Positions 16,583 to 39,365 of a stretch of DNA of 64,000 bases are shown one piece after another. The notes beneath the pieces are model-generated. The model worked only from the letters and a program-made list of their open reading frames with translations. It was not told where the DNA came from and did no database searches. The DNA lies in contig JAFAQY010000055.1 in NCBI GenBank assembly GCA_019261985.1, positions 1 through 64,000 of the forward strand, read 5' to 3'. The position numbers were made by a program, and so were the translations under genes. Origin of the DNA: Bryobacterales bacterium. GTDB taxonomy: Bacteria; Acidobacteriota; Terriglobia; Bryobacterales; Bryobacteraceae. The stretch's first letter is position 1. Each line of letters begins with the position of its first letter.

Positions 16583-17008
16583 ATGGAGTCCGAGGCGATC
16601 AAGCGCTCGCTCGAAGCCGGCGGATTGCGGTGTACTCCCCAGCGCTACGCCGTTATGGCATTCCTGACGAAACACGCCAGTCACCCTACCGCGGCGGAAA
16701 TCTTCGAAGCTGTTAATCGCGTTGATCCGCGCTCTTCCAGAGCCACTACTTACAACAATCTGCGGGACCTGGTGCACGCGGGTTTGGTGCGCGAGGTGGC
16801 CGTCGAGGGGCGCGCCGCGCGATTCGATGTGAAAGGCATGCGGCATCACCATTTCATCTGCGACCGCTGCGGAGATGTCGAAGATATCGAATGGTACGAC
16901 GTGCCCAGGCCCGCGTCCGCTTCCCTCGGTAAGCGGGTGCTCCGCGAATGTGAGCTGATTTTCCGGGGGCTTTGCACGAAATGCGCTCCCAAGCGTGCTT
17001 CCCGTTAA
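16583..17008 (+). CDS. perR: Fur-family transcriptional regulator, probably PerR
   Basis: A 141-residue regulator. Residues 1-85 form the winged helix (CTPQRYAVMAFL, TAAEIFEAVNRVDP, SRATTYNNLRDLVHAGLV). The dimerisation half has the metal-ligand run HHHFICDRCGD and a second CxxC, GLCTKC, giving the structural zinc site of four cysteines. PerR-type proteins use Fe or Mn and sense hydrogen peroxide by oxidising histidine ligands, then release genes such as katG. That katG starts 40 bp downstream on the same strand is the main reason to prefer PerR over Fur or Zur. The upstream palindrome supports autoregulation. Confidence 0.85.
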   Translation: MESEAIKRSLEAGGLRCTPQRYAVMAFLTKHASHPTAAEIFEAVNRVDPRSSRATTYNNLRDLVHAGLVREVAVEGRAARFDVKGMRHHHFICDRCGDVEDIEWYDVPRPASASLGKRVLRECELIFRGLCTKCAPKRASR

Positions 17009-17036
17009 TTTTTGACTAATTCGTATAAATTCGTAA

Positions 17037-19295
<2,259 letters not shown>

Positions 19296-19676: not shown

Positions 19677-20999
19677 TCATTGCCGAGGACTTATGGCAGC
19701 AGGCAGCGCGTTCTCCTCATCTTCTCTCGACATCGCTGGTGCACGGACCGTCATATACTGAGTCACGTCTTTAGAAAAAACCACATCCAGCGTCCATTGC
19801 AATGCGACGCGCACTTTTCTGTCCCAACCGGGCAACTTGGCTAGGTAAATGGTCCGCCACAGCCACCAAGCAAGGAAGCCTGAAAACTTGACTCCCAGTA
19901 CCTCGGCGACTCCCACGCGTTGTCCGATGGCCGCCATTTGGCCTAGCATGCGAAACGAAAAAGTCTTGGAGGAGCGCCCCTGAATTGCCGCCACGATGTT
20001 GTGGGCCGCTACTCGGCCCTGTCTCAAGGCATGCTGCGCCGTTGGAGGACAGGGCCGCCCCGTGTTCCGGTCGATGACCGCGGCGCAATCCCCGACAGCC
20101 CACACGTTGGGGAAATCCGGGATCTGCAGATAGTCGTTCACCGCAACTCGTCCGCGATCCTTCGCGCACGGCAAGACTTCCAGTAAAGGATTGGGCGTGG
20201 TTCCGGCAGTCCATATAATAGTGGCGCTTCGAATCGTCGCTCCGTTCGCAAGTGTCACCGAGTCGTCGGAGACCGCAGAAACCTTGGTGTTTAAGATGAT
20301 TTCCACTCCACGCTTTTCCAATTTCGCTAGCGTGTACCTGCCCAGCTCCTCTCCAAGCTCCGGAAGAAGGTACATCCCGGAGTGGACTAGAACGAGGCGA
20401 ACCATTTTCTGATGCAAGTTGCGGTAGAGCGGCAGAGCATGGCGCAAAAAGTCGTTGACCGCCGCAATCGTTTCGACGCCGGCAAACCCGCCGCCCGCGA
20501 CAACGAACGTCAACAGGGGCTCGCGGTCGTCTTTGGCACAATCGGTGTCCGCTTCTTCCAGGTGAGCGATCAGCCGATTTCGCAAGGCTACCGCGTCCCC
20601 CAAGCTTTTCATCGTAATCGCCCGTTCCATTAAACCGGGCAGGTTATAGAAATTCGCGGTGGAACCCAACGCCAGGATGAGATGATCATAGGGAACCGTG
20701 TGGGAGTGACGCCTGAAACCGTGGGACAACGTTAGGCGGCTATTGCGGAGGTCAATGTGCTCCACTTCTCCGGAGAACAGTTGCACTTTTCGTAGGAGCT
20801 TTCTCGTCGGATTCACGATGGTTGTCAGGTCCAGATCGCTCGCCGCAACTTCGTGCAGCATGGGCGTAAAGAGGAAAAAGTTATCTCGGTTTACAAGAGT
20901 GATGTCGACGTTTGATTTCTTGCCCAGCTGCCGTTCCAGTTCCAGGGCGCTGTATAGACCACCGAATCCGCCGCCTAATATGTAGACTTTCTTGTTCAT
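19677..20999 (-). CDS. Type II NADH:quinone oxidoreductase (NDH-2)
   Basis: A 440-residue single-subunit flavoprotein that passes electrons from NADH to quinone without pumping protons. The FAD site is ILGGGFGGLYSALE at residues 7-20; the second Rossmann site for NADH is VVAGGGFAGVE; the ATG-type motif VWAVGDCAAV binds FAD near the C-terminus, and PTAQHALRQGRVAAHN is typical of NDH-2. The last 100 residues (GFLAWWLWRTIYLAKLPGWDRKVR) form the amphipathic membrane-binding part. GGAG lies 6 nt before the ATG. It is co-directional with two DM13 genes upstream (49-bp gap) and probably in one operon with them, linking DM13 proteins to respiratory electron flow. Confidence 0.88.
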   Translation of the reverse strand: MNKKVYILGGGFGGLYSALELERQLGKKSNVDITLVNRDNFFLFTPMLHEVAASDLDLTTIVNPTRKLLRKVQLFSGEVEHIDLRNSRLTLSHGFRRHSHTVPYDHLILALGSTANFYNLPGLMERAITMKSLGDAVALRNRLIAHLEEADTDCAKDDREPLLTFVVAGGGFAGVETIAAVNDFLRHALPLYRNLHQKMVRLVLVHSGMYLLPELGEELGRYTLAKLEKRGVEIILNTKVSAVSDDSVTLANGATIRSATIIWTAGTTPNPLLEVLPCAKDRGRVAVNDYLQIPDFPNVWAVGDCAAVIDRNTGRPCPPTAQHALRQGRVAAHNIVAAIQGRSSKTFSFRMLGQMAAIGQRVGVAEVLGVKFSGFLAWWLWRTIYLAKLPGWDRKVRVALQWTLDVVFSKDVTQYMTVRAPAMSREDEENALPAAISPRQ

Positions 21000-21048: not shown

Positions 21049-21558
21049 TCAGAACGGTTCTAGCCTCGCCAAGCCGAATATGGCGTGGAAGCGCTCGCAG
21101 TAAATCACGGCGGTGCGGTACTTCGTCAGGTCCGTGGTACCGGGCAGATCGTAGTTCTGATCGCCCTGGTTTCCTTTGAGCGATCCCAGTTCAACACTGT
21201 CGAGGTTGCCTCTTACGATTTCTTGTTGCAGGCCCTGATCGTCGCCTCGCACGAGCAGCACATGCACGTCGGGGCCATTGGACGTTATGAAATCGGTTAG
21301 ACGCAGATATTGCTTGCCATCGGACCGCTTATAAAGCGTCGCACGACCGCTTGTCTGGTGCGCTTTACCTTGGAGACGTCCGGTATAAAGAGGCTGAGGA
21401 TCGAGTGCTGAAGCAAAAGGCGCGGGTTCGTTAACCTTCTCGTTAATCCAGAGCTTGTCGGGCCGGAAAGCCCACCAAGCAGCGATGAAGATTGGGAAAC
21501 CTACCGCCGCCACGGTCCATTTCCTGCGGGATATCCATGTAGCTATTTGAAGTGTCAT
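21049..21558 (-). CDS. DM13-domain protein with N-terminal membrane anchor
   Basis: 169 residues; ATG 21558 chosen for AAGGAAAC just upstream. Residues 12-30 are a single hydrophobic segment (WTVAAVGFPIFIAAWWAF), probably an uncleaved anchor facing the periplasm. Residues 55-169 form the DM13 domain: GRLQGKAHQTSGRATLY, LRLTDFITSNGPDVHVLL, VELGSLKGNQGDQNYDLP and AVIYCERFHAIFGLARLEPF with the conserved cysteine. DM13 domains are thought, from bioinformatic work on eukaryotic proteins, to take part in redox or electron transfer through that cysteine. It follows a paralog and precedes NDH-2. Confidence 0.85.
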   Translation of the reverse strand: MTLQIATWISRRKWTVAAVGFPIFIAAWWAFRPDKLWINEKVNEPAPFASALDPQPLYTGRLQGKAHQTSGRATLYKRSDGKQYLRLTDFITSNGPDVHVLLVRGDDQGLQQEIVRGNLDSVELGSLKGNQGDQNYDLPGTTDLTKYRTAVIYCERFHAIFGLARLEPF

Positions 21559-21580
21559 GTCTGTTTCCTTAAGGGCTGAA

Positions 21581-21603
21581 TTGGGCGGTTGTGCACCGCC
21601 CAA
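21581..21603. repeat. Intercistronic hairpin between the DM13 genes
   Basis: A perfect 9-bp stem TTGGGCGGT / ACCGCCCAA with a 5-nt loop. On the minus strand no T-tract follows, so processing or mRNA stabilisation is as likely as termination. Confidence 0.45.
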
Positions 21604-21623
21604 CCGAGTTTTGAAAGCAGCGC

Positions 21624-22064
21624 TCAAAACTTCTCGAGCGGCGCTGCACCGAAGTTCGCGTTGAACCTCTCGCAATAAATGGAAACGGTTTGAAACTTAC
21701 TCAGGTCAGTCCCTTTGGGGACCACGTAATTCTGATCGCCTTCATTCCCTTTGAGGCTGCCGAGTTCCACACGCTCCGTATTGCCTTTCAGGAAATTGGC
21801 ATCGTCATCCGCATCCTTGGCTGCGATAAGAATCACATGCACATCCGGCCCATTCGAAGTCTTGAAGTTCGTCAGCCGAAGAACCAACTTCCCGTCCTGC
21901 TCCTGATAGAGGGTTGCCCGGCCCGAGGTATTATGCACTTTCCCATGAAAGGTGCCGGTCTCGATAGGCTTGGCCTTGCTGTCCTGTGCGTTCACCAAGG
22001 GCTGTAAAGCCAACGTGAAGGCCAAAGTCACCAGCGGAATTGCTGTCCTGCTGTTGCGAATCAT
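21624..22064 (-). CDS. Secreted DM13-domain protein
   Basis: 146 residues with AAAGGAGAGAG before the ATG. A cleavable signal peptide ends QPLVNAQ. The DM13 domain is complete: GTFHGKVHNTSGRATLY, LRLTNFKTSNGPDVHVIL, VELGSLKGNEGDQNY and VSIYCERFNANFGAAPLEKF. It is about 60 percent identical by eye to the anchored paralog next to it; this one lacks the anchor, so the pair may be a soluble and a membrane-bound partner. It is the first gene of the likely DM13-DM13-NDH-2 operon and diverges from the sigma-factor fusion gene. Confidence 0.85.
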   Translation of the reverse strand: MIRNSRTAIPLVTLAFTLALQPLVNAQDSKAKPIETGTFHGKVHNTSGRATLYQEQDGKLVLRLTNFKTSNGPDVHVILIAAKDADDDANFLKGNTERVELGSLKGNEGDQNYVVPKGTDLSKFQTVSIYCERFNANFGAAPLEKF

Positions 22065-22198
22065 AATCTCTCTCCTTTGCGTCGGTTGAATCTCTTCTGT
22101 TGCTTTTCCGGTCCGCGTCGTTGGTGTGACGGGGTAGCGGGGAAAAGGATGCAGAGTCTCTCGCCCGCGAGTGAACGATTCAAGCTAGAGTAAGACCA
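22065..22198. promoter_or_regulatory. Divergent regulatory region between DM13 operon and sigma-fusion gene
   Basis: 134 bp serve two divergent operons. Read on the minus strand, TGCATCC is followed 15 nt later by CGTCAC, which is ECF-promoter-like (a -35 block and a CGTC-type -10), but I cannot test it. No sigma-70 consensus is obvious. If the ECF factor regulates itself or the DM13 genes, its site must lie here. Confidence 0.35.
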
Positions 22199-23974
22199 AT
22201 GAGCTACTTCGGCGAGGTTGACCTGGGCTCGTCATTCCAACCCTTCTACACCTTGCGGGAATCCTATGGTTTCGTACCGAACCTCTTTCGCGCTCAGACG
22301 TTGCTTCCTCGGCTGATCGAGGCTGAGGCTGGACTTTCCGCTAGCTTGCTTTGGAAAGAGCGGGCGTTGTCCCGCGTCCAGAAAGAGTTCATTGCTTTCA
22401 TAGTTGCAGCTGCGTATGGAAATGCGTATTGCTTCGCCCAACACCATCAAACACTGAGTTCTCTAGGCGTGACGGAAAATCAGATCGATCAGGTGATGCG
22501 GGATCATCATCAGGCACTTTCGCGGCCGGACGCAGCTTTGCTCGATTTCGCGCTTAAACTGGCTTTCAGCGCTCCCTGGCTGTCGAGTGAGGACATCGTT
22601 GTGCTCCAAGACCACGGATTTACCGACGAGTCCATCCTGGAAGCCATTCTGGTTACGAGCCTGACTATCTTCTTCTGCACGCTCTCTACAGCGATGGGCG
22701 CATCGCCCGATCTCCACCTCCCGGCAAAGCCAGGCCCCCGCAAAGCCTTACGGCCGGCTACCGGCAAATACGTCGGCGGTACAGCGGGACCGTACTTGCG
22801 CACGGTAGAACTGAGTCCCGATAGCTTTCCGCCCTTCGCTTTTTTGGTGGAAAGATTTGGCTTCGTTCCGACAATCTTCCGGGCTCAAACACTCATACCT
22901 GATGTTATCGATGCCGAGGCCGATACCGTTCGCAAGATTCTCATGCCCGAGAACCTCCTTTCTCATGTGCAGAAGGAGTGTATCTTTCTGGTCGGATCCG
23001 CAGCGAACCTAAATACCTACTGTGTTGCCGCCCACTGTGAGATGCTCCGAAGAATGGGGGTTTCGGCCGAAGAGTCCGATCAGATCGCGATAGACCACCA
23101 CCAGGCTGAGCTTTCAGATGCCGATAAGAGGTTACTGGACTTCGCTGTCAAGCTGACTTCGCGGCCTTCCGAGTTTCACTCGGAGGATGTCGAACTGCTT
23201 CGACAACACGGTTTTTCCGAAGCGCATATTATGGAAGCCGCGGCGGCGACTGCGCTCAACTCTTTCTTCAATACGCTGCAGATGGGCCTTGGCACAACGC
23301 CTGACTTCGAAACTAATCGCGTGTTTGGGCCGGAGGACGCGCATCCTTTTCGTGCTGCGGACCGTCTAACGAACGAGGCGCAAGCTGACCCGGACTCCGA
23401 GTTGGTGGCCAGGGTACAGCGCGGCGACCTGGATGCCTTTGAGGAATTAGTCGCCCGTCATAGCCGCCGTGTCTACCGGACGTTGATGGGCATCCTTTCG
23501 AATATCGAGGAGGCTCAGGACGCAGTGCAGGACACATTCCTAAAAGCATTTCAGCATATCGGCGATTTCCAGGGGCGTTCTAAATTTTCCACGTGGGTGC
23601 TGACCATTGCAAGCAACACAGGTCTACAACGCCTGCGTGAGCGAAGGCCTATCGAGAGCCTCGATGAAGTACCGTCCGAAGAAGGTGGAGACTTCCGCCC
23701 CCGCCAAGTGCGGGCTTGGGTGGAGGACCCGGAGCAGTTGTGCTCTCAGGCCGAGAGGCGCCGCCTGGTGGAGAGCGCGGTGATGCAGCTCCCGCCAAAA
23801 TACCGAATGGTTCTGGTGCTGCGCGATATGGAGCAGCTTTCCGGGCTGGAAGTTGCCGCGGCGCTCGGTCTGGGAGTGCCTGCTATGAAGGCGCGGTTGT
23901 TTCGTGCACGCATGATGCTGCGGGAAGCCCTCGCACCTTATTTCGCAAGCAGTGCAAGAAGGATGGGTCAATGA
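22199..23974 (+). CDS. Double AhpD-like (peroxidase-related) protein fused to an ECF sigma factor
   Basis: 591 residues in three parts. Residues 1-175 and 205-375 are two copies of an all-helical AhpD/carboxymuconolactone-decarboxylase-like domain (FVPNLFRAQTLLPRLIEAEA and FVPTIFRAQTLIPDVIDAEA match). Each keeps one cysteine and a histidine where AhpD has CxxCxxxH: NAYCFAQH (Cys78, His82) and NTYCVAAH (Cys275, His279); the first cysteine is Asn in both. From about 398 the protein is a sigma-70 factor of ECF type: region 2 (VQRGDLDAFEELVARHS, EAQDAVQDTFLKAFQHI, SKFSTWVLTIASN) and region 4 (LPPKYRMVLVLRDMEQLSGLEVAAAL, MKARLFRARMMLREAL). There is no stop or ribosome site at the junction, so this is a true fusion in the sequence given. 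It probably acts as a cytoplasmic sigma factor with a built-in redox or peroxide sensor; that role is inference. Confidence 0.88.
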   Translation: MSYFGEVDLGSSFQPFYTLRESYGFVPNLFRAQTLLPRLIEAEAGLSASLLWKERALSRVQKEFIAFIVAAAYGNAYCFAQHHQTLSSLGVTENQIDQVMRDHHQALSRPDAALLDFALKLAFSAPWLSSEDIVVLQDHGFTDESILEAILVTSLTIFFCTLSTAMGASPDLHLPAKPGPRKALRPATGKYVGGTAGPYLRTVELSPDSFPPFAFLVERFGFVPTIFRAQTLIPDVIDAEADTVRKILMPENLLSHVQKECIFLVGSAANLNTYCVAAHCEMLRRMGVSAEESDQIAIDHHQAELSDADKRLLDFAVKLTSRPSEFHSEDVELLRQHGFSEAHIMEAAAATALNSFFNTLQMGLGTTPDFETNRVFGPEDAHPFRAADRLTNEAQADPDSELVARVQRGDLDAFEELVARHSRRVYRTLMGILSNIEEAQDAVQDTFLKAFQHIGDFQGRSKFSTWVLTIASNTGLQRLRERRPIESLDEVPSEEGGDFRPRQVRAWVEDPEQLCSQAERRRLVESAVMQLPPKYRMVLVLRDMEQLSGLEVAAALGLGVPAMKARLFRARMMLREALAPYFASSARRMGQ

Positions 23975-24216
23975 TCACCTGCGACGAGTTTATGGCGGAA
24001 TTGGGAAATTACCTGGAGGGAGAGGTTGCCAACGAAGTGCGCAAAGAGCTTGAACGTCACCTCTCACACTGCCGGACCTGCCAGGTGGTCTACGATTCCA
24101 CACTCAAGACTGTCAAAATCGTGACGGACAGCGGTTCGTTCGATCTGCCAGAGGTAGCTGCGCTGCCGATCAGAGAAAAGATCATGTCAAGGATACGGAA
24201 GGAGACGACCTCATAA
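23971..24216 (+). CDS. Zinc-finger anti-sigma factor, soluble
   Basis: 81 residues. The ATG overlaps the sigma gene's stop (ATGA) and AAGGAT lies upstream, so the two are translationally coupled. Residues 30-37 read HLSHCRTC, the H-x3-C-x2-C zinc anti-sigma motif, in a short helical protein with CDEFMAELGNYLEGE at the start. There is no transmembrane segment, so it should be cytoplasmic, as in ZAS proteins of the RsrA type that sense thiol oxidation. Its partner is almost certainly the fused sigma factor. Confidence 0.85.
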   Translation: MITCDEFMAELGNYLEGEVANEVRKELERHLSHCRTCQVVYDSTLKTVKIVTDSGSFDLPEVAALPIREKIMSRIRKETTS

Positions 24217-33474: not shown

Positions 33475-34262
33475 AGAGCGGCTTGGTCGGAGGCGGCGAT
33501 CCAGGTGGGCCGAACGGTAGCGGTGATCCGGGCGGCCCAAACGGCAGCGGCGACCCGGGCGGTCCAAACGGGAGCGGTGATCCGGGCGGGCCTAATGGCA
33601 GCGGCGCACCGGGCCCGGCTGTACATTATGGCGTCGACTATCCTGCCGCCGCCGCATCGGCGCCGAAGCAGATCAACGTCATCGGGCCCGTCGTCATTGA
33701 GCAGCGTCTTCTTCGCTTCAGGATTCAGCGGCAAGAGCAAGCGGACTGGTGCTGGGCTGCGTGTGCCGCCAGCATAGAAAAATACTTCGACCATGACTCG
33801 AAGATAAAGCAGTGCGATGTTGCCAGTAAAACACTGCGTGTCGAGTACCCACAGGATGAACTCCCGGACAGCGATCCCGGCTGCTGCTGCCATTGCTGCT
33901 GTGAACCTGACCCCTGCGACAAGCCCGCAAGGTTAGGAATAGCTCTGCAGCAGATTCACAAATGGCGGAACAGCCTGCAGAGATCGCTAACGTTTGAGGA
34001 GGTTCAGCGTGAGATAGACCGCGGACGGCCGATCGGCGCAGGCATCAAATGGAACAGCGGCGGCGCGGACGGTTCACCGGGCACCACCGGTCATTTCGTC
34101 GTTATCCGCGGTTACCGGCTGCTTAGCTCGGGCGCTTGCCAACTCTACATCGCCGATCCTTTAAACGCATCGCGTCTGGTCGATTTCGGTGAATTTACAT
34201 TCGCCTACTATGGCGAGGGACAGTGGGTGGAAACCGACCTCGTCCACAGCGGGTTGGAATAG
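33462..34262 (+). CDS. Papain-like cysteine protease with nonapeptide repeats and CCCHCCC cluster
   Basis: 266 residues; AAGGAGGGAG precedes ATG 33462, inside the kinase gene's end. Residues 12-47 are four exact GDPGGPNGS repeats after a short head with GLVGGG. The protease domain begins near 85: nucleophile Cys97 in QADWCWAAC, His211 in GTTGHFVVIRGY and Asp232 in LYIADP, the order of C39/C70-like papain-fold enzymes. Between them lies a striking cysteine cluster at 138-152 (DPGCCCHCCCEPDPC), absent from typical members, possibly a metal site. There is no hydrophobic signal peptide. The GG pair near the N-terminus recalls double-glycine leaders, but this is speculative. It probably acts with the kinase upstream and the unknown protein downstream. 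Confidence 0.75.
   Translation: MQKVKSGLVGGGDPGGPNGSGDPGGPNGSGDPGGPNGSGDPGGPNGSGAPGPAVHYGVDYPAAAASAPKQINVIGPVVIEQRLLRFRIQRQEQADWCWAACAASIEKYFDHDSKIKQCDVASKTLRVEYPQDELPDSDPGCCCHCCCEPDPCDKPARLGIALQQIHKWRNSLQRSLTFEEVQREIDRGRPIGAGIKWNSGGADGSPGTTGHFVVIRGYRLLSSGACQLYIADPLNASRLVDFGEFTFAYYGEGQWVETDLVHSGLE
33495..33602 (+). repeat. Four in-frame 27-bp repeats encoding GDPGGPNGS
   Basis: Units at 33495, 33522, 33549 and 33576. The nonapeptide is identical in all four while the codons differ at several third positions. Confidence 0.9.
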
Positions 34263-38044: not shown

Positions 38045-39365
38045 ACTGCCCGCTACTATCCCCGAGCTTCTCCACCGGCAGTCCCAGCTTGTTCAGGACG
38101 GTCAATTGAAGATTCGTGAGCGGCGTGTGCTCCGGATAAACCAAATGCCGGCCGCCCTTCAACGTCCCGGCTCCTCCGCCTACAAGGAACGCCGGCAGCG
38201 GACCGTGGGTGTGGCGATCGCTATTGCTGATTCCCGACCCGAACAGAATGATCGTGTGATCCAGCAGAGACCCGTCGCCATCCGGAGTCTTACGCAGCTT
38301 TTCTAAATAATCGGCGAACAAGGCGATGTGATAGCGCTGGATCTTCGCACATTTGTCCATCTTCTCCGGGTTGCCCTGGTGATGGGTGAGCGGATGGTGC
38401 GCCTCCGGCACTCCAATCTGCGGATATGGCCGTGATGTCTGCTCGCGGCCGTACATGAATGTGATCACGCGAGTGATGTCGGATTGGTATGCCAGCAGTT
38501 GCAGATCGTAGAGCAACCGCACGTGGGCGTCGAAATTATCGGGAATGCCGGCGGGCTGCGCAACATCGGGCAGTTCCTTCGAACTCTGCTCCTCGGCCTT
38601 TTGTATCCGCCGCTCTACATCCCGAAGTGACGCAAGATAGTCGTCCACTTTGCGATTGTCCGTGGCTCCGAGCTTGCCCTGAAGCTGCTTCACACGATCG
38701 CCGACGGAATCCAAAAGGCTCTTATCCTGGCTGAGGCGCGCGGCCCTCACGCGCGGATCGGTGCTGTCGCTTGAACCGAACATGCGCTCGAACAGCACCC
38801 GCGGATTATTTTCCGCCATAAGCGGCAAAGTCGGCGTGAGCCAGGAAAGCGTGCTCGAATACGCGCAACTGTATCCCAGATCGCACGAGCCCAAGAGGCT
38901 GTTTTCATCGGCGGTCATTTGCAAGGACGATAGCTGCGTCTCGCGCTCGAATGCCTTCGCCGCGATCTGATCCATCGAGACTGCATTCTCTACGTTGCTG
39001 TCCGACTTCTTTACATGCACGCCCGTCAGATAGCTGCCGCACGCGCGCGAGTGATCGCCGCCCCCATCGCCGAGCGCCTCGGCTGGATCGCTGAACAGGC
39101 CCGTGACGACGATCAACTTGTCCTTAAACGGTTCTAGCCCCTTCAATGTCGGCGACAACTCGAAATTCGACCCGGCGCCCTTCGGCAGCCATTGGTCGTA
39201 GATGACGCCGTTGGGATGATAGACAACGCCGAAGCGGCGCACGGGAGCGGTCGCGGCGGCCGGCGCAAAAGCGGGAATCATCGCATCTAGCAGCGGCAAT
39301 GTTACGGCCGTGCCCATTCCGCGTAGCACGGTGCGGCGCGAAATCGACTTCTTCGTCACGAACAT
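38022..39365 (-). CDS. DUF1552 family secreted protein with Tat-like signal
   Basis: 447 residues. The N-terminus KKSISRRTVLRGMGTAVTLPLLDA has a twin-arginine signal (SRRTVLRG), so export in folded form is likely. The body matches DUF1552 proteins of Planctomycetes and Acidobacteria: FGVVYHPNGVIYDQWLP, FKDKLIVVTGLFSD, DHSRACGSYLTGV, HHPLTHHQGN, LFGSGISNSDRHTHG, LPAFLVGGGAGTLKGG. Members resemble the sulfatase/alkaline-phosphatase-like DUF1501 group, and the many His and Asp residues suggest metal binding, but no activity has been shown. It almost always follows a DUF1592-type cytochrome gene, as here (9-bp gap). Confidence 0.88.
   Translation of the reverse strand: MFVTKKSISRRTVLRGMGTAVTLPLLDAMIPAFAPAAATAPVRRFGVVYHPNGVIYDQWLPKGAGSNFELSPTLKGLEPFKDKLIVVTGLFSDPAEALGDGGGDHSRACGSYLTGVHVKKSDSNVENAVSMDQIAAKAFERETQLSSLQMTADENSLLGSCDLGYSCAYSSTLSWLTPTLPLMAENNPRVLFERMFGSSDSTDPRVRAARLSQDKSLLDSVGDRVKQLQGKLGATDNRKVDDYLASLRDVERRIQKAEEQSSKELPDVAQPAGIPDNFDAHVRLLYDLQLLAYQSDITRVITFMYGREQTSRPYPQIGVPEAHHPLTHHQGNPEKMDKCAKIQRYHIALFADYLEKLRKTPDGDGSLLDHTIILFGSGISNSDRHTHGPLPAFLVGGGAGTLKGGRHLVYPEHTPLTNLQLTVLNKLGLPVEKLGDSSGQFRELAGV

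Follow-up and report, generated by a model that had tools for sequence, protein, structure and literature searches.

A single gene of the window encodes two CMD/AhpD-like domains followed by an ECF sigma factor. The window comprises 64,000 nucleotides, positions 1 to 64,000 of the forward strand of contig JAFAQY010000055.1 (GCA_019261985.1, Bryobacterales bacterium), and all coordinates refer to it (Table 1). The frame contains no internal stop. Pfam matches CMD over two stretches of the protein, followed by Sigma70_r2 and Sigma70_r4_2, each above its curated cut-off. The protein is also a member of the NCBIfam family peroxid_rel (TIGR01926), which it matches over two stretches with 179.4 bits (cut-off 81.8). 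No further sigma region is reported by Pfam and the PDB matches are ECF sigma factors, in keeping with the ECF type that possesses Sigma-70 regions 2 and 4 only. The approximately 398 residues with the tandem CMD module that precede σ2 constitute a regulatory extension, that is, an extra domain on the same chain.

Table 1. Genes, domains and promoter-like block at the fusion locus of the window
Feature	Position	Strand	Description
Type II NADH dehydrogenase-like flavoprotein (NDH-2)	19677..20999	-	Pyr_redox_2, NDH2_C
DM13 protein b	21049..21558	-	DM13 above cut-off; membrane-anchor-like N-terminus (by eye)
DM13 protein a	21624..22064	-	DM13 above cut-off; signal-peptide-like N-terminus (by eye); divergent from fusion
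Promoter-like conserved block	22125..22153	+	TGTGACGG-N15-GATGCA; precedes fusion gene; sole exact copy in genome
Fusion gene	22199..23974	+	591 aa: CMD/AhpD-like domain 1, CMD/AhpD-like domain 2, ECF sigma regions 2 and 4
CMD domain 1 (CMD1)	22199..22708	+	residues about 1-170; Glu63, Asn75 (first-Cys position), Tyr77, Cys78 (codon 22430-22432), His82
CMD domain 2 (CMD2)	22787..23314	+	residues about 197-372; Glu260, Asn272, Tyr274, Cys275 (codon 23021-23023), His279, Cys280
ECF sigma domain	23393..23971	+	residues about 399-591; σ2 417-483, σ4 522-574
Soluble zinc anti-sigma protein (ZAS, zf-HC2)	23971..24216	+	81 aa; CHCC motif Cys4/His30/Cys34/Cys37; 4-nt overlap with fusion

An earlier note on this DNA had described one uninterrupted frame with two AhpD-like domains and a complete ECF sigma factor, an overlapping zinc anti-sigma gene, and two DM13 genes and an NDH-2 gene in divergent orientation. 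All of this is borne out, the anti-sigma gene by a zf-HC2 domain above the Pfam cut-off and the divergent genes by their Pfam domains and strands. Cys78, Cys275, the histidine at +4 and the asparagine replacing the first cysteine, which were also named there, are present in the window protein. The NDH-2 gene falls just outside the range given in that note (21049-24216).

Between the window and G411, the Ka/Ks ratio is 0.26 for CMD1, 0.158 for CMD2 and 0.158 for the sigma domain; it is 0.6–0.7 for the two linkers. The three domains are under purifying selection. A full-length AlphaFold model had a pLDDT of 34, so that no interface is visible, and was not used. The model of CMD2, built on a four-row alignment, reached a pLDDT of 72 in the best of five and 40–46 in the others, and served for fold assignment only. 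It matches Sestrin2 weakly (Foldseek E 0.078–0.26). The module is not classed with the sestrins, as the best Foldseek E is 0.078 and no sestrin is found among the PDB sequence matches up to E 1.

Occurrence and relatives of the fusion

A search for the same domain order across genomes found the fusion in eight genomes from two classes, with an overlapping anti-sigma gene in all eight. The carriers are some soil Acidobacteriota. A bacteria-wide scan, with patterns taken from one protein, matched the nearest relative only and does not show absence outside Acidobacteriota. The phylum scan scored the best three candidates per genome only; repeated with a one-Cys CMD query, it gave matches at E 1e-22 or better in 5 of 396 genomes (G000, G128, G153, G169 and, weakly, G234). 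On plasmids, 48 records matched the CMD tandem, all with less than 60% identity and none spanning 80% of it. Among the literature matches listed, a CMD-sigma fusion is described in none of the titles or beginnings of abstracts, most subscription papers being outside the scope.

At three other loci, sigma and anti-sigma genes occur without the fused module, and a CMD gene lies behind them in two. The sigma, ZAS and one-Cys CMD genes are adjacent in G169 and at G128:C31, and the sigma factors of these two loci cluster with those of the fusions (92/90). In the CMD tree, which left out the second domain of G407, all CMD1 copies form one group (98/94) and all CMD2 copies another (98/98), the pattern that a single origin of the tandem would give. 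A separate CMD gene is found within the same gene run at G407, G128, G519, G169 and G128:C31. Beside the stand-alone CMD gene of G153:C196, no sigma or ZAS gene was detected. As versions with separate genes, with the fusion, with partial decay and with a deleted domain exist side by side, the order in which the putative sensor was incorporated into the sigma factor is testable.

Cysteines of the CMD module and of the anti-sigma protein

The first cysteine of CxxC is missing from all 21 CMD domains compared, none of which thus has the AhpD-type dyad; its position is occupied by Asn, Asp, Glu or Ser. All seven CMD2 copies that can be aligned (G407 lacks that stretch) and six of six stand-alone CMD proteins possess the full set of AhpD-type proton-relay residues, namely Glu, the second Cys and His. 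In CMD1, this set is complete in just four of the eight fusions and incomplete in the other four, and every fusion retains at least one domain with the complete set. Cys275 is kept in 7/8 fusions, the position of Cys78 is occupied by Cys in 5/8 and by Trp in 3/8, and no cysteine of the module is common to all eight. Given the triad of CMD2 in 7/7 against 4/8 for CMD1, Cys275 and not Cys78 is the better-kept thiol; equal roles for the two are ruled out by the alignment. The sensor with one reactive thiol per domain envisaged in the earlier note is therefore upheld as regards a one-Cys site instead of CxxC, and fails as regards two equivalent sensing domains. In the window, CMD2 has an additional cysteine (Cys280) immediately after its histidine, which the note does not mention.

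The anti-sigma proteins of the eight fusion loci are of the CHCC type (Cys-x(n)-His-x3-Cys-x2-Cys), as are all 38 distinct ZAS genes found, which include these eight (44 rows minus 6 rows repeating the same places). The motif also occurs in ZAS partners of sigma factors without CMD nearby and is thus not tied to the CMD module. In the window, the ZAS protein contains the three cysteines of the motif only. The closest NCBIfam model is RsrA (TIGR03988), with 39.8 bits against a cut-off of 62.5, so that the protein falls short of the RsrA equivalog. Redox sensing by RsrA requires an N-terminal cysteine zinc ligand (PMC4960319). Since a CHCC motif such as RsrA needs for redox sensing is found at all eight fusion loci, the anti-sigma protein may be the redox switch. 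This pattern, with the gene overlapping the fusion each time, speaks against a sigma factor that senses alone and directly, as had been proposed.

The promoter-like block and the divergent genes

The block that precedes the fusion gene has a single exact copy in each of the genomes G000, G411 and G407, always at the fusion. Because it was first found at the fusions and then searched for in the genomes, the search tests its rarity and not its function. Its placement suggests that the fusion is autoregulated. G407 has an additional TGTGACGG-N16-GATGCA, perhaps by chance, on the other strand within its fusion gene. A search pattern for ECF promoters of the GGAAC type matched at three scattered places.

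A promoter common to the fusion and the DM13 genes was considered and rejected. With up to three mismatches, no block precedes DM13 in the window, in a scan of low power that gave 12 matches overall against 18.6 expected by chance, so that the exact site alone is meaningful. With up to one mismatch, none precedes DM13 in G411 or G563. The block being found upstream of the fusion only, the control of the DM13 and NDH-2 genes by the fusion sigma factor that the earlier note had put forward is not supported.

Co-occurrence with the fusion holds for DM13, which is present in four of the six genomes that carry the fusion and in 1 of the 251 others in the order, and is weaker for NDH-2, a close copy of which is linked to the fusion at three of the eight loci. 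G407 and G519 possess the fusion and have no DM13 in their genomes. We infer that the DM13 and NDH-2 proteins serve the same redox physiology as the fusion. A literature search for the DM13 domain with electron transfer gave a sole match, concerning insect cuticle; the rare DM13 domain gains here a regulatory context.

Possible mechanisms and known systems

The reading that we tentatively prefer, while granting it somewhat less than an even chance, is that the ECF sigma factor and its anti-sigma protein form a pair that responds to redox state and is autoregulated, the sigma factor having absorbed what used to be a separate partner protein. On the observed architecture, conservation, residue patterns, promoter-like block and neighbours, the following thiol chemistry and direction of signal would fit. 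The overlapping CHCC zinc protein would hold the sigma domain until, as in RsrA, a disulfide links its Cys4 to Cys34 or Cys37, and would then release it. The two CMD domains together would be a repurposed peroxidase-related protein, CMD1 acting mainly as a structural partner. As CMD2 retains a Glu-Tyr-Cys-His relay without a cysteine three residues upstream, reaction with a hydroperoxide or an electrophile would stop at a sulfenic acid or an adduct of Cys275. This modification would change the seating of the module on the sigma domain, or the oxidation would be handed to the bound anti-sigma protein.

In favour of this redox model count the presence of a ZAS gene with each of the eight fusions, the CHCC motif in 38/38, the CMD2 triad in 7/7, a Ka/Ks of CMD2 equal to that of the sigma domain, the clustering of separate-gene sigma factors with the fusion ones, and the block at the fusion. 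That a one-Cys AhpD-like site can work is indicated by human Sestrin2, in which a single cysteine reduces alkyl hydroperoxides via sulfenic acid (PMC4674687). Against the model count the lack of a cysteine common to all eight fusions, a ZAS score below the RsrA cut-off, CHCC motifs without CMD, the CMD gene of G153:C196 without sigma or ZAS gene alongside, and the differences from Sestrin2 (given below) and from TTHA0727, which has Ser instead of the first Cys and is inferred to be devoid of peroxidase activity (PMC3141380).

Rather unlikely, though closest behind, is a CMD tandem that serves for ligand binding or docking and carries out no thiol chemistry. Binding of a hydrophobic small molecule or of a partner protein would alter the hold of the anti-sigma protein on the sigma domain. 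CMD1 is indeed retained where its active site is incomplete, the CMD2 model resembles Sestrin2 weakly, sestrins have a second AhpD-like domain that lacks redox activity, and the SnoaL and TPR extensions of ECF sigma factors are thought to work through ligand or partner binding (PMC8999054). However, the kept Glu, second Cys and His of CMD2 would be needless without thiol chemistry.

A further reading, which we consider unlikely, is a tethered peroxide relay. In this case CMD2, with its one Cys and fixed to the sigma factor, would be oxidised first and would pass the oxidation on to the zinc-bound thiolates of the anti-sigma protein that sits on the same sigma chain, so that signal, receiver and transcription factor would form one unit; at the separate-gene loci, a free CMD protein would act likewise in trans. 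If true, bacteria would have, in a sestrin-like tandem, their own equivalent of thiol-peroxidase relays such as Orp1-Yap1, and a peroxidase fold would have been turned into a bacterial transcription sensor in parallel to animal sestrins.

It is quite improbable that the module is a working enzyme co-expressed by the fusion, the autoregulating sigma factor making its own detoxifying CMD as ECF41 drives a neighbouring CMD gene. A CMD gene is the only ECF41 target detected in B. licheniformis and R. sphaeroides (PMC3426412), and both the separate CMD genes in five gene runs and the block before the fusion itself would agree with such a role; but the first cysteine is missing throughout, CMD1 is losing its active site, and the ECF41-linked CMDs all retain CxxC. 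The model of the earlier note, in which the sigma factor senses peroxide or thiol state via Cys78 and Cys275 and switches on a divergent DM13/NDH-2 operon, is slightly less probable still. The window protein has both thiols and DM13 co-occurs with the fusion, but the Trp at position 78, the overlapping CHCC anti-sigma genes, the low-power scan without a block before DM13 and the two fusion genomes without DM13 argue against it. Finally, a product of misassembly, frameshift or read-through is virtually excluded: loci with separate genes exist, as the note had reckoned with, but the frameshift that it coupled to them is absent, and eight open frames with mostly different flanks and three domains under purifying selection rule out an artefact.

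Several known systems come close to the fusion. The peroxidase-related AhpD-like proteins (TIGR01926; PDB 6k40, 2prr, 2pfx, 2oyo, 3c1l) share family, fold and the Glu, Tyr, second Cys and His, whereas the CMD domains of the fusion lack the first Cys, are duplicated and are joined to a sigma factor. To our knowledge, TTHA0727 has no known function, and its chain is without a sigma factor. This CMD-family protein from Thermus also lacks the first cysteine (Ser70; PMC3141380). Sestrin2 likewise contains two AhpD-like domains in tandem, of which one has a single-Cys site and the other is devoid of catalytic residues, and it acts in stress signalling (PMC4674687); unlike the fusion, it is eukaryotic, keeps the first Cys, in its N-terminal domain, and acts on mTORC1 signalling rather than RNA polymerase. 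In the fusion, it is the second Cys that is kept, in the C-terminal CMD domain.

Among sigma factors, SigR-RsrA and SigH-RshA resemble the fusion locus in that an ECF sigma factor is paired with a ZAS protein that is short and soluble, and the CHCC zinc motif here is as in RsrA; they have no fused sensor, whereas the ZAS protein here scores below the RsrA cut-off and has just the three motif cysteines. ECF41 (SigJ, Ecf41Bli) shares the fusion to an enzyme-fold domain and a genomic link to CMD proteins, but its own fused domain is a C-terminal SnoaL, CMD is a separate target gene with CxxC, and there is no obvious anti-sigma gene (PMC3426412). In the fusion, CMD is doubled, N-terminal and without CxxC, and a ZAS gene overlaps; Pfam finds no SnoaL in the protein, which is thus not an ECF41 member. 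CorE (ECF238) has cysteine-based sensing in the sigma factor's own extension, which differs in being a metal-sensing C-terminal Cys-rich tail without anti-sigma factor, and ECF270 is listed with a soluble anti-sigma of unspecified mechanism, an Acidobacteria model protein and extensions in some members (both from PMC8999054). The fusion is possibly a peroxide detector built into the sigma switch itself. In the same review, ECF sigma factors that carry a fused regulatory extension are said to be devoid of an anti-sigma factor (PMC8999054); unlike these, the fusion group, with a ZAS gene overlapping at 8/8 loci, combines a regulatory extension and an anti-sigma factor.

The fusion gene and its distribution

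The fusion gene is a single open frame encoding a chain of 591 residues. Pfam matches, all above the curated cut-offs, place two CMD/AhpD-like domains (CMD1 and CMD2) before sigma-70 regions 2 (residues 417-483) and 4 (residues 522-574), and the NCBIfam model peroxid_rel (TIGR01926) matches the protein in two stretches (179.4 bits, cut-off 81.8). The gene that follows encodes an 81-residue zf-HC2 protein and overlaps the fusion gene by 4 nt. The uninterrupted CMD-CMD-sigma frame and overlapping zinc anti-sigma gene described in an earlier note are therefore confirmed.

The host genome (6.49 Mb) contains a single copy. Full-length fusions were found in 3 of the 396 genomes of a phylum scan (the host G000, G128 and G153), in G411 and G407 besides the host in a scan of 61 relatives, and in 6 of 257 genomes of the order (G000, G411, G407, G519, G483 and G563). 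The same domain order, for which the note had proposed a search, thus occurs in eight genomes of two classes. In the alignment, six are from one family, including G411 from the genus of the host, and G128 and G153 are from another class. The zf-HC2 gene lies directly behind the fusion at all eight loci, with overlaps of 1 to 26 nt when the start codons of the longest frames are used, these starts being uncertain in G128, G153, G483 and G563. In the comparison of the window with G411, Ka/Ks was 0.258 in CMD1, 0.158 in both CMD2 and sigma, and higher in the two linkers (0.61 and 0.71).

Coordinates of the features in the window and in loci (L) fetched from the compared genomes
Feature	Sequence	Position	Strand
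Fur-family regulator and catalase-peroxidase (KatG) gene	window	16583-19295	
Promoter-like block	window	22125-22153	+
Fusion gene	window	22199-23974	+
zf-HC2 protein gene	window	23971-24216	
27/54-base tandem array	window	33493-33614	
tRNA-Ile call (anticodon tat)	window	38760-38851	-
Fusion gene with deletion in CMD2	L057	7526-9091	-
Block-like sequence inside fusion gene	L057	8146-8175	+
Second ECF sigma gene	L058	8087-8749	-
Second ECF sigma gene	L059	1284-2294	-
Second ECF sigma gene	L079	10226-10879	+
Frame joining sigma to preceding protein	L060	8166-10178	-
Canonical CxxC CMD gene	L077	3185-3844	+
Shared four-gene set	L087	12740-17431	
Shared four-gene set	L084	3-2854, 14702-15808	
Shared four-gene set	L088	6187-9655	
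Shared four-gene set	L089	1050-2168	

CMD active site and phylogeny

Twenty-one domains (8 CMD1, 7 CMD2 and 6 stand-alone) were aligned with four canonical CxYC proteins. The note had claimed that both domains lost the first cysteine of CxxC and kept the second cysteine and the histidine. The loss holds for all 21 domains, and 7/7 CMD2 and 6/6 stand-alone copies have the full set of Glu, second Cys and His; the retention does not extend to CMD1 as a whole, where 4 of 8 copies have the full set. The second Cys of CMD1 is replaced by Trp in G519, G483 and G563, and G411 has Gln at the His position, with a His one residue further. Every fusion retains at least one complete Glu-Cys-His domain. A Cys immediately follows the active-site His in 6/7 CMD2 and 4/6 stand-alone copies. 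The nearest solved structures for both domains are 6k40, 2prr, 2pfx, 2oyo and 3c1l, and a Foldseek search with a moderate-quality CMD2 model was consistent with these. The corresponding positions of the 2prr protein are Cys86, Tyr88, Cys89, His93 and Glu74 (passages of PMC4674687; residue mapping by this analysis).

The sigma, zf-HC2 and CMD genes are separate and in this order at loci of G169 and G128 (contig C31), and a G215 locus has sigma and zf-HC2 genes without CMD. In the sigma tree, the eight fusion sigmas group with those of these three loci (92/90), and nine sigmas of family f2 fall outside this group. Of 25 f2 loci fetched, one (L038) was cut by a contig end; the other 24 (L014-L037) all have a zf-HC2 gene, and no CMD was found within about 1.5 kb (0/24). 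The CMD tree has one group for domain 1 (8 rows, 98/94), one for domain 2 (7 rows, 98/98) and, with weak support, one for the stand-alone genes (6 rows, 61/86). A single origin of the tandem would give this pattern, which falls short of proof.

Stand-alone one-Cys CMD genes also occur downstream of the fusions in G407 and G519, and in G128 behind a second sigma gene and a second zf-HC2 gene; beside the stand-alone CMD gene of G153 (contig C196), no sigma or zf-HC2 gene was detected. The G407 fusion carries an in-frame deletion through the CMD2 active site that removes the stretch with the Cys, and its separate one-Cys CMD gene, behind the anti-sigma gene, is intact. In G519, a canonical CxxC CMD gene adjoins the fusion and its one-Cys CMD gene. 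The sigma on contig C31 of G128 is joined in a 670-residue frame to the preceding protein, a relative of which is a separate gene in G169; this frame may be another fusion or may reflect a lost stop. Three loci have, downstream of the fusion, a second ECF sigma gene, which at L058 and L059 is accompanied by a zf-HC2 gene of its own; this arrangement suggests a sigma cascade.

Promoter-like block and gene neighbourhood

The block TGTGACGG-N15-GATGCA is identical upstream of the fusions of G000, G411 and G407, has one change in G519 and is present by eye in a decayed form in G563; none was seen upstream of the fusions of G483, G128 and G153. Allowing at most one mismatch, nine sites were found in five genomes. 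The three exact sites are all at a fusion, as is one of the six one-mismatch sites (G519), and the reversed pattern gave two sites. These counts indicate that the block is rare and specific. TGTGAC and GATGCA are separated by 17 nt, a spacing that suits an ECF promoter; it is therefore likely, judging from sequence, that the fusion autoregulates through the block, which could instead be a site for another regulator. The block was not found before DM13. Inside the G407 fusion gene, the opposite strand carries TGTGACGG-N16-GATGCA, whose spacer exceeds that of the upstream block by one base.

Two DM13 genes and one NDH-2 gene (Pfam) are divergent from the window fusion. DM13 occurs in 5 of the 257 genomes of the order. 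G000, G411 and G563 each have two DM13 domains in the entire genome, both situated 0.1 to about 5 kb from the fusion; G483 has a partial gene on a different contig from the fusion, and G500, which lacks the fusion, has a match (28.5 bits, cut-off 25) in a 726-residue frame. The co-occurrence of DM13 and NDH-2 that the note suggested checking was found in part. DM13 is present in 4/6 fusion genomes versus 1/251 others (Fisher p 4e-7), or 3/4 fusion genera versus 1/80 (p 2e-4), both tests treating related genomes as independent, but it is absent from G407, G519 and the two genomes of the other class, G128 and G153. Close NDH-2 copies (at least 57% identity) occur in 5/8 fusion genomes and are linked to the fusion in three (G000, G563 and G153); G411 has DM13 and no close NDH-2. 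Within the order, close copies occur in 3/6 fusion genomes versus 3/251 others (p 1e-4), and at an E threshold of 1e-100 the figures are 3/6 versus 22/251 (p 0.013).

The fusions of G153, G407 and G563, which represent both classes, share neighbours no more than about 20 kb away: genes for a glucose dehydrogenase, a GMC oxidoreductase, a glyoxalase-fold protein and an aquaporin (Pfam names of the G563 copies). This set perhaps moved as a block. Immediately before the G563 fusion is a molybdopterin oxidoreductase/ferric-reductase pair, by our own reading MsrPQ-like. In the window, the Fur-family regulator and KatG genes are convergent to the NDH-2/DM13 genes, making the 16.5-24.2 kb region rich in redox genes. 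Elsewhere in the window, a 92-base tRNA-Ile called by ARAGORN is absent from Rfam at its threshold and probably false, and a GC-rich tandem array contains about 4.5 copies of a 27-base unit.

Proposed working and comparison with known sigma factors

The zinc motif CHCC, as in RsrA, is present in 38/38 distinct zf-HC2 genes found, eight of them behind fusions; the window protein scores below the cut-off of the RsrA model. Since CHCC is equally common without CMD nearby, it carries nothing specific about the fusion. The anti-sigma protein is likely the switch and the CMD module an added input. Redox release would be carried out by the anti-sigma protein, CMD2 may have a sensing role, and sigma would act on its own promoter. 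The boldest reading is a relay of oxidation from CMD2 to the anti-sigma protein.

No report of a CMD-sigma fusion was among the literature matches listed, a set that leaves out most subscription papers. The first part of section 3.5, the tables and passages of the review PMC8999054 mention no CMD extension; there, ECF sigmas with regulatory extensions are described as lacking an anti-sigma factor, and ECF270 is tabulated as having soluble anti-sigmas, its model being an Acidobacteria protein, and also as carrying extensions in some members. ECF41 is also tied to CMD genes, but according to passages of PMC3426412 its sigma is fused to SnoaL, the linked CMDs keep CxxC, and there is no obvious anti-sigma gene, in contrast to the one-Cys domains and zf-HC2 gene of the fusion loci.
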